Below are positions 1 through 51,666 of a DNA stretch of 64,000 nt, in pieces. Every line of letters starts with the position of its first letter. Positions within the stretch are counted from its first letter, which is position 1. The stretch lies in NCBI GenBank assembly GCA_018969425.1, contig JAGWYJ010000005.1, positions 1 to 64,000 on the forward strand. The letters are read 5' to 3'. Origin of the DNA: Alphaproteobacteria bacterium (GTDB taxonomy: Bacteria; Pseudomonadota; Alphaproteobacteria; Caulobacterales; Hyphomonadaceae). Position numbers and translations under genes: made by a program. The notes beneath the pieces were generated by a model. The model was given only the letters and a program-made list of their open reading frames with translations. It had not been told where the DNA came from and did not search any database.

Positions 1-57
1 CTCGACCTGCTTCAGAGCCGATACGATCTGTTCCGTCGAAAACCGCTTCCGCTTCAC
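1..57 (-). CDS. IS3-type transposase OrfA, N-terminal 19 codons (runs off window)
   Basis: Read on the minus strand, a GTG start at 57 opens a frame encoding VKRKRFSTEQIVSALKQVE. This matches the start of OrfA (helix-turn-helix, end-binding subunit) of IS3-family elements, which typically begin MKRKRF-[ST]-EQI. The gene continues beyond position 1, so completeness cannot be judged. It lies just inside a terminal sequence ending near 129, as expected for the 5' end of such an element. Family assignment rests on 19 residues and the element end. Confidence 0.6.
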   Translation of the reverse strand, partial: MKRKRFSTEQIVSALKQVE

Positions 58-129
58 CGCAAACTTCCTCCCTCGGAAATCCGCCGAAAACTAACATCAG
101 ATGTGGACCAGTTTCACGGGGGCGCCTCA
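1..129 (-). mobile_element. End of an IS3-family insertion sequence (partial)
   Basis: The minus strand from 129 begins TGAGGCGCCCCCGTGAAACT, continues with a GGTCCAC block, and reaches the transposase start codon at 57. IS3-family elements start with 5'-TG and have GC-rich terminal repeats about 50-80 bp before OrfA, so the outer boundary is placed at 129. The other end is outside the window, so neither the target duplication nor the full length can be checked. Confidence 0.5.
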
Positions 130-270: not shown

Positions 271-339
271 CTTTAATTGCCCGGGAGACTATTAAAGTTT
301 AGCGAGTTATACTTTAATAACGATTAGGCGCTATTAAAG
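271..339. promoter_or_regulatory. Four alternating ATTAAAG half-sites before fic (candidate operator array)
   Basis: Four copies of the same heptamer, in alternating orientation, lie at 271-277 (CTTTAAT), 291-297 (ATTAAAG), 312-318 (CTTTAAT) and 333-339 (ATTAAAG). Their centres are 20, 21 and 21 bp apart, close to two helical turns each. The last copy ends 8 bp before the fic start at 348. The surrounding DNA is GC-rich, so the AT-rich repeats stand out. This geometry suggests cooperative binding of a dimeric repressor. The winged-helix tail of the downstream Fic protein is a possible ligand, which is inference. Confidence 0.6.
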
Positions 340-347
340 GATGGACT

Positions 348-1520
348 ATGACAGCTCCGCAGGATTCCGGAAGGAAAGGCAAATGGGTGACGAGCACCGT
401 CACCGGCGAGACCGTGCGCGCTTTCCTGCCGCCGGACCTGCCACCCCGGCCACCGATCGACATGGCTGGGCTGTCGGTCCTCGCCAGCGAGGCCATGCTT
501 GCCCTCGGCAGGCTGGACGGCGTTCGCAGCGTTGCGCCCGACACCTCGCTCTTCCTCTACATGTATGTGCGCAAGGAAGCGCTGCTCTCGTCCCAGATCG
601 AGGGGACGCAGTCCTCGCTGTCGGACCTGCTTCTCTACGAAGATGAGGCCGCGCCCGGCGTCCCGCTCGACGATGTCGAGGAGGTTTCGACCTATGTCGC
701 CGCCCTCATCCATGGCCTGGACCGGATCCGGGGCGGGTTCCCTCTATCGCTCCGCCTGCTGAAAGAGATGCATGGCATTCTCTTGTCGTCGGGCAGGGGA
801 AGCGCCAAGCAGCCAGGCGAGTTCCGGCGGTCTCAGAACTGGATTGGCGGAACGCGGCCGGGCAATGCGCTGTTCGTGCCGCCGCCGCCCCAGCACGTGC
901 TGGATCTCATGAGCAATCTCGAAGCCTTCCTTCACGAGACAGACTCTGGCCTGCCGCCGCTCATCAAGGCGGGTCTGGCGCATGTGCAGTTCGAGACAAT
1001 CCATCCGTTTCTCGACGGCAATGGCCGGCTTGGGCGGCTGCTGATCACGCTGTATCTCTGCGAGCAGGGGATCCTCGACGAGCCGCTCATCTATCTGAGC
1101 CTTTATCTCAAATCCCACCGGGCGACCTACTACGCGCTCTTGCAGGAAGTGCGCGAGCATGGACGATGGGAGACCTGGCTTGAATTCTTCCTGACCGGCG
1201 TGCGGGATGTTGCGCGTCAGGCGCATGAGGCGGCGCGGTCGATTTCTGCGATCTTTGCCGAAGATGCTTCGAAGATCGCGGGGCTCGGACGCGGGGCGCC
1301 GGCGGCGCAGGCGTTGCATGCGATCCTTCAGAAGCGTCCGCTCCTGACGATCGGCACAGCGGCTGAATTCTCAGGCGTAACGTTCCCGACAGCAACGGCA
1401 GCGCTGGAGCGCCTGCAGGCCCTGGGCGTTGTCGCGGAGATCACCGGTAAGGCGCGTGGGCGGGTGTTTGTGTACCAACGATATTTGTCATTGCTGGATG
1501 TCGGGACTGACCCGCTATAG
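348..1520 (+). CDS. Fic/DOC family protein with N-terminal inhibitory helix and C-terminal winged helix
   Basis: A 390-residue protein. The catalytic Fic motif HPFLDGNGRLGR (residues 219-230) is complete; proteins with it transfer AMP or another nucleotide from NTPs to target hydroxyls. An N-terminal Fic_N region contains SSQIEG (81-86), matching the class II inhibitory signature [S/T]xxxE[G/N], in which the Glu (E85) blocks the NTP gamma-phosphate position. The last ~80 residues look like a winged helix (TIGTAAEFSGVTFPTATAAL), as in the SoFic-type family. The start at 348 is used; an ATG at 341 is in another frame. The gene follows the heptamer array and stands between an IS end and a defence-gene remnant, so it may belong to an accessory island. 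The target is unknown. Confidence 0.9.
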   Translation: MTAPQDSGRKGKWVTSTVTGETVRAFLPPDLPPRPPIDMAGLSVLASEAMLALGRLDGVRSVAPDTSLFLYMYVRKEALLSSQIEGTQSSLSDLLLYEDEAAPGVPLDDVEEVSTYVAALIHGLDRIRGGFPLSLRLLKEMHGILLSSGRGSAKQPGEFRRSQNWIGGTRPGNALFVPPPPQHVLDLMSNLEAFLHETDSGLPPLIKAGLAHVQFETIHPFLDGNGRLGRLLITLYLCEQGILDEPLIYLSLYLKSHRATYYALLQEVREHGRWETWLEFFLTGVRDVARQAHEAARSISAIFAEDASKIAGLGRGAPAAQALHAILQKRPLLTIGTAAEFSGVTFPTATAALERLQALGVVAEITGKARGRVFVYQRYLSLLDVGTDPL

Positions 1521-50025: not shown

Positions 50026-51666
50026 TTATCCGTCTCGGGCGGCTGGTAGATCGACAACAAAGCGCGCGCCTTTCCCCTCGGGCCTGTTTTCGGCCCACAC
50101 CCGACCCCGATGGGTTTCAACGATCTGGCGAACGATCGATAGGCCGAGACCGGAATTGTTCCCGAATTTCGCTCCCCGAGGTCGGTCCGAATAAAACCGC
50201 TCGAATATCTTCTCAAGCTTGTCTGGGGGCACGCCCGGTCCTTCGTCTTCGACTGTAAGCCTGAGCATCGGCCCGTTCGGTCCCCCGGCTTGTCTCAAGG
50301 CGACCTTCACCTCCCCGGAGGGGGGAGAAAAGGAACGGGCGTTCTCGACAAGATTTCTCACGACCTGGCTCAGCGGTCCCTCGCGACCCATGACGTTTGT
50401 CTGCCCCTCGGCCCCTGACAGGTCGAGCAGGATGCGCGCATCTCCCGGCCGGGCCGTGTCGCGATAGATAGAAACGATGTCATCGAGAAGTCGGCCCAAA
50501 TCCACCCGCACTCTTTTCTCGCGGACGATTTCCGCTTCGAGGCGAGACAGGTTGGAGATGTCTGTAATAAGGCGATCAAGCCGCACCACATCACGGGCGA
50601 TCACTTCATGCATCCGCTCCCTCACTGCGGGGTCCGAGACGGCCTGAGAGGTTTCAACAGCCGAGCGGATGGATGTCAGAGGGTTCTTGAGCTCGTGAGC
50701 CACATCTGCAGCGAACCGCTCATTGGCCTGAATGCGGTCGTGCAGGGTCTCTGTCATCGCCTCCATGGCCTTGGCGAGATCTCCGATTTCGTCACGTCGC
50801 CCCGACAGGGAGCCGAGGTTAAGCCGTTCGGCTGCACCTGTCCTGACGCGGTCCGAAGCGAGAGACAGCTTGCGAAGAGGACGCGCGATGACCGCCGTCA
50901 GCAGAGTGGATGTGATGACCGCGACCATCACGGCGACGATGATGAACGGGAGGAGGGCTGCGCGCTCGGCGGCGATGATGCCTGCGATGTCGCTGGTCTC
51001 CAGAGTGAGTGCGCCCACCACGGCGCCGACAAGGCGTATAGGAGCCGACACCGAAATAATCCGTTCGCCTCGGTCATTAAAGCGCTCAGACGCAACGACT
51101 TCGCCCTGGAGGGCAAGCATGGCTTCCTCTTCGAGGGTCCTGGCTTCGGCGATGGTCGGCTGTCCCCGGGGGCTAACGCCTTCGAGGGTGGCGTTGAGGG
51201 TTCGGATGATGTTGAGCCAGCTTACGGCGAGAGCGCCTGGCTTCCGGATCGGCGGCAGCTCGCGCCCTTCGATTTCGTCATTTAGCAGGTAGGTGTCCGC
51301 GACGACGCTCTTATCCGCATCTAGGATCCGAATGCGTGTGCTCGGGGAAAATTCAATTCTTTTGAGAAAGGCCCGCGCCGCTGGATTGATGAGGCGCGGC
51401 TCCGGTTCCCCGCGCGTCGCCACTTCCGTGAGAACCGAGGAGATTAGAGCGCCGGTCTCCTGGAGGCTTTCCTTGCGGGCCTGAACAAGGTTCGAGCGGA
51501 CCTCGTTCAGAACGAGCGCTCCCACGATGAGGATCACCAGGCCCGCAAGATTAGATGCGAGGATGAGGCGCGCGATCGGCGACCACAGAAGCGAACGTGG
51601 TCGCGATGTCGTCACTCTTCTTCTGCGCGAGGCGTCAGACTTCTTTATAACGATACCCCACGCCAT
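50026..51666 (-). CDS. chvG: Sensor histidine kinase ChvG
   Basis: 546 residues. Two membrane spans ([39 protein letters not shown]) enclose a periplasmic domain of ~180 residues; then a HAMP, DHp with His324 in [11 protein letters not shown], and HATPase ([29 protein letters not shown]). It senses envelope stress or acidity and phosphorylates ChvI. The start overlaps the chvI 3' end, so the exact Met is uncertain. Confidence 0.93.

Follow-up and report, generated by a model that had tools for sequence, protein, structure and literature searches.

CccR of Yersinia pseudotuberculosis is a Fic protein with a helix-turn-helix (HTH) domain that represses its own promoter, doing so through two inverted boxes located near -35 and -10, and it is a dimer, the recognition helices of which lie 70.2 angstrom apart (PMC9755527). 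EcSofic is dimeric and toxic, has a winged HTH (wHTH)-like domain at its C-terminus, and could not be cloned even under the control of a single lac operator (PMC12249575). With CbFic2 of Coxiella burnetii, the C-terminal winged HTH binds random DNA with high affinity; DNA binding by SoFic, according to the authors of that same study, had not been demonstrated at the time (PMC10628234). Considered here is an array of four short repeats immediately preceding a fic gene of SoFic type, as found in an alphaproteobacterium of the Hyphomonadaceae (assembly GCA_018969425.1), specifically within the first 64,000 nucleotides of contig JAGWYJ010000005.1, a stretch which in its entirety is termed the ‘window’. 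To judge from its letters and from those of its relatives, this array is very probably an autoregulatory operator of the adjoining fic, through which SoFic-type Fic dimers repress that gene.

The repeats are heptamers, ATTAAAG or its complement CTTTAAT, found at 271-277 (minus strand), 291-297 (plus), 312-318 (minus), and 333-339 (plus). They alternate in orientation, with centres 20, 21, and 21 base pairs (bp) apart and with 8 bases between the last of them and the fic start codon (ATG at 348), which is just as a preliminary description of this DNA had placed them. The local stretch, 261-348, is AT-richer than the window as a whole (41% versus 61.5% GC), and in 20,000 shuffles of that stretch more than two heptamers were never seen. 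Elsewhere in the window there is one further copy, at 51076, with 1.5 copies expected from whole-window shuffles. Over all 3.2 Mb of the genome, the pairing CTTTAAT-N12..15-ATTAAAG is seen twice, each time within the fic promoter. The four-site array is not a chance occurrence. The regular lattice initially described is real, and alternating, but the unit is better taken as about 9 bp (CTTTAATAG-type) than as a heptamer. As 9-mers, that is, neighbouring sites are separated by 18-19 bp where they converge and by 23 bp where they diverge, for a period of 41-42 bp. The predicted operator half-sites, which contain the four heptamers in the same order, then are 271..279 (minus; CTTTAATTG), 289..297 (plus; CTATTAAAG), 312..320 (minus; CTTTAATAA), and 331..339 (plus; again CTATTAAAG), with the third overlapping a -10-like box and the fourth a Shine-Dalgarno sequence.

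Distant relatives were sampled twice: as 76 non-redundant fic loci from many phyla, and as 28 alphaproteobacterial loci, of which at least two repeat sequences of the first sample (L102 is the same as L013, and L111 as L035), such that the second sample is not fully independent. Inverted-pair distances alone are fuzzy, since sub-windows of a single palindrome slide, and periods therefore were taken from direct repeats and from a free, i.e., unconstrained, search for three alternating sites, with a score of at least 22 of 27 defining a strong chain. Direct-repeat distances upstream of fic in the 76 loci have maxima at 31 bp, with 26 loci, and at 41-42 bp, with 18 and 8 loci, where roughly one locus is expected. 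The free search finds strong arrays upstream of fic in 43 of the 76, 29 of these with a period of 40-42 bp, versus strong three-site chains in only 3 of 69 and 4 of 76 control regions of the same loci. For the second sample, strong arrays are seen with 19 of 28 loci, 13 having a period of 40-42 bp, and with 2 of 27 controls. Scans using 9-mers put sites across relatives at 18-19 bp when converging and at 23 bp when diverging, the latter within analyst-imposed limits of 22-24 bp, so that it is upon the free scan that the period rests. Half-site letters vary by subgroup (CTTTAATAG; CTTTCTTAG or CTTTCGTTA; CTTAAATAG; TGTTAGTTA) on a shared lattice, the geometry of which is conserved while its letters change. 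The array accompanies fic across many phyla as well as on plasmids. Homologous loci lacking the repeats, which had been named beforehand as what would speak against the proposal, thus are not the rule, as the array is present in most relatives.

Variations on this theme are seen as well. In fic loci of Thermus, Enterobacter, and Escherichia coli, direct repeats are spaced at 30/31 or 40 bp, SoFic genes being found in 278 of 5426 E. coli genomes. The E. coli SoFic promoters (L138, 1311-1440; L139, 1293-1422; L140, 1259-1388) carry ATATGTCGAT/ATCGACATAT repeats before the start codon, with direct spacings of 30 and 40 bp and an inverted spacing of 19 bp; in L138, annotation gives the fic copy as frameshifted, and a second Fic gene comes after it. 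A proteobacterial clade with recognition helix SAPTVNAALADL (L046, L048, L051, L061, L062, L077, and others) displays a variant layout in which CTATTTAAG is repeated at 31 bp with a degenerate CTTACCTTA in between, and in which the last site contains a -35-like TTGCTT, with a CATAAT box at a distance of 17 bp. Upstream of more distant relatives, at 35-45% identity (Synechocystis, Haloarcula, Eubacterium), no clear lattice is found. From the E. coli promoters, the repeat theme may reach the whole of the SoFic family.

Among 105 genomes of the same bacterial family, fic of SoFic type is found in 14, i.e., patchily. Its close copies (80-97% protein identity) display DNA homology to the window only from about position 119 to the stop codon, and because the shared DNA spans only that much, the gene plus its promoter behave as one mobile unit. 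The preliminary description had suggested aligning the upstream DNA of close homologues. As so aligned, the same heptamers are kept while the DNA between them differs: invariant columns number 20 of 28 within heptamers versus 11 of 49 between sites (Fisher p 3.5e-5), that is, heptamers are nearly invariant while spacers drift. Window positions 1-118 are the end of an IS3-type insertion sequence (IS) element, with the complement of 1-60 reading as AVKRKRFSTEQIVSALKQVE, transposase OrfA-like, and with the contig itself starting at base 1. It could be supposed, given a mobile gene, homology bounded by position 119 and the stop codon, and an IS end upstream, that the repeats are not regulatory at all but instead are iterons, an integration site, or the ends of an element. 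Such sequences would not be expected to sit at a constant position immediately ahead of the start codon, to be conserved while spacers drift, or to covary with a protein helix (below), however, and this supposition is given next to no credence.

The fic gene itself (348..1520, plus strand) encodes 390 amino acids and, by Pfam, PADLOC, and motifs, is assigned to the class II Fic AMP-transferases of the SoFic defence family. Pfam identifies Fic_N and Fic domains and the PADLOC SoFic profile matches with an E of 1e-117; with the C-terminal winged helix, the domain order associated with that profile is present in full. Against the NCBIfam SoFic equivalog, NF046030, the protein scores 158 bits, below the curated cut-off of 550, and on these profile scores it is a relative of SoFic proper rather than the equivalog. 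The class II inhibitory helix, (S/T)xxxE(G/N), is SSQIEG at residues 81-86, invariant over 54 homologues, among which the catalytic HPFxxGNGRxGR motif (HPFLDGNGRLGR, residues 219-230) is invariant or nearly so. In the AlphaFold model (predicted local distance difference test, pLDDT, 83) the C-terminal winged helix (residues 314-384, codons 1287..1499, plus strand) consists of helices 314-329, 335-342, and 346-358 followed by a wing, the last of these being the recognition helix (codons 1383..1421, plus strand). Structure comparison of that model gives Mycobacterium marinum Fic and Shewanella oneidensis SoFic as the nearest solved folds over the whole length. Model and solved relatives together confirm what had been stated earlier, that this Fic protein ends in a winged helix.

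It is with this recognition helix that the letters of the half-sites covary. Over 66 loci and approximately 1500 column/position pairs, the two highest values of corrected mutual information (MI) are those joining residues 350 and 346 to half-site position 5, with both residues found, in the model, where the recognition helix begins. Over 93 loci, four of the top ten MI pairs fall inside that helix, 0.4 being expected, and an arginine at 350 (R350) is paired with C at position 5 (G on the opposite strand) in 10 of 10 loci. On a tree built from residues 1-305 the C5 state changes about 4-6 times, with the residue having shifted in the same way whenever it differed. These observations bear on whether the array might be instead the operator of another, unlinked regulator which controls fic. 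Global regulators commonly have operators of several sites, and Fic as the binder is itself a prediction. Half-site letters nevertheless change with the Fic recognition helix, the array travels with fic in many phyla and on plasmids, and the paired motif is nowhere else in the genome, and an unlinked regulator hence is considered to be very unlikely.

What binding would accomplish is suggested by where the sites lie. A -10-like hexamer, TATACT (308..313, plus strand), is recognized from the conserved TATnCT preceding site 3, reading TATCCT in most close copies, and a Shine-Dalgarno-like AAAGGA (336..341, plus strand) is found 6 nucleotides before the ATG. Because site 3 overlaps the former and site 4 the latter, Fic binding should block fic expression. 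Solved relatives suggest that it is dimers which would bind, and the 70.2 angstrom of CccR corresponds to approximately 20-21 bp of B-DNA (68-71 angstrom), which is the spacing of the window array. Fic dimers thus may read alternating half-sites via the recognition helix (346-358) of their C-terminal winged helix, with two dimers side by side, presumably cooperatively, on about four half-sites, and with the repeat of 41-42 bp equaling four helical turns. So bound, these dimers would lie over the -10 region at site 3 and over the ribosome-binding site at site 4, such that fic transcription would stop once a small pool of protein existed. Expression would be self-limiting, and a toxic AMP-transferase, presumed to act in defence, would be kept low in uninfected cells. 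Self-repression through the array, put forward in the preliminary description as plausible, is what I would still infer, now with support from the recurrence of the array in relatives and the covariation of recognition helix with half-site letters.

Repression presumably is the outcome rather than activation. Fic could bind the array yet activate, or could switch between the two by AMPylation or ATP state, which is viewed as quite unlikely since the position of sites 3 and 4, over a -10-like box and ribosome-binding site, is typical of repression. The same promoter positions bear on a role for the repeats in RNA, i.e., as leader hairpins effecting attenuation or translational control. Converging pairs are, to be sure, inverted repeats that are able to pair. 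With the -10-like box at 308-313, however, the transcript would include site 4 alone, individual half-sites alternate in orientation over some 70 bp across the promoter, and their letters follow a DNA-reading helix, all of which leaves RNA hairpins extremely unlikely.

Several points weigh against an autoregulatory operator as read by Fic. About one-third of relatives are without a strong lattice, and the CTTAAATAG clade instead combines direct repetition at 31 bp with an inverted pair at 23 bp. In the 93-locus set the two top-ranked pairs fall outside of the recognition helix, and the tree-corrected sign test, with approximately 4-6 independent C5 changes, has too few of them for significance. 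A consensus promoter scan upstream of fic returned no sigma-70 promoter and no clear -35 box. The wHTH of such Fic proteins need not, by analogy with CbFic2, be sequence-specific. Lastly, the centre-to-centre distance between the boxes of CccR is 36 bp rather than 20-21, such that dimer geometry does not transfer simply.

A widely kept operator ‘grammar’ bears on how bacteria keep a toxic Fic silent until infection. This grammar provides SoFic-type proteins with a predicted DNA target, with a predicted specificity residue (350), and with a ready reporter assay, while differing natural half-sites on one lattice represent a ready-made specificity code. The C-terminal domain, studied so far for toxicity, becomes testable as a sensor. 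Beyond autoregulation, it might be proposed, though this is rather unlikely, that SoFic-type Fic is a self-contained sensor, with dimers arrayed along a four-turn lattice at their own promoter and with the ATP or AMPylation state of the Fic active site moving the winged helix, such that infection would free the lattice and activate the toxin with no further regulator needed.

As to what surrounds the gene, a co-regulated downstream operon was considered and rejected: only 33 of 77 loci have a next gene oriented like fic, for the most part across large gaps, and neighbour families are not shared, from which it follows that fic usually stands alone. Beside the window fic, at 1571-1924 on the minus strand, a 117-residue open reading frame matches the 941-residue HmaC defence ATPase profile over its final 85 residues only (PADLOC, 1.2e-11) and is a probable remnant of an Hma-type defence system. 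At three further loci (L136, 5983-11384; L132, 1-6871; and L131) SoFic-type fic is found 11 bp before Hachiman hamA/helicase in Aminobacter, flanked by a helicase and a DUF1156 gene in Thermus, and amid type I restriction genes in Synechocystis.

The preliminary description knew of no Fic protein with an operator so arranged. That holds in part, as CccR does autorepress, via its two inverted boxes (PMC9755527), and no report of a four-site lattice in SoFic genes, or of its conservation, was found in the open literature, with subscription papers and preprints outside of that scope. In comparison with CbFic2, the window protein is similarly a Fic enzyme with a C-terminal winged HTH; CbFic2 has been tested with random DNA only, with no operator described. 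Its resemblance to CccR includes a Fic domain plus C-terminal HTH, a class II inhibitory helix, a probable dimeric state, and boxes at the core promoter, repeated boxes over the core promoter of their own gene being a feature of CccR-kind Fic-HTH regulators that is present here. The layouts differ, with two 10-bp boxes and a 26-bp spacer for CccR versus four half-sites at 18-19 and 23 bp in the window, and so too do the proteins, since CccR is grouped with the DUF4172-type CbFic2 (PMC10628234), whereas the window protein matches Fic_N, and since CccR is secreted by a type VI secretion system. Relative to the anti-phage Fic proteins SoFic and EcSofic (PMC12249575; PDB 3zcn, 3eqx, 9vjc), the window protein is only about 28% identical, the published role of their C-terminal domain is in toxicity, and E. 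coli SoFic relatives have a different repeat, ATATGTCGAT, at direct spacings of 30 and 40 bp. It is nonetheless SoFic and EcSofic which the window protein is like in whole-length fold, in domain order, and in its PADLOC match.
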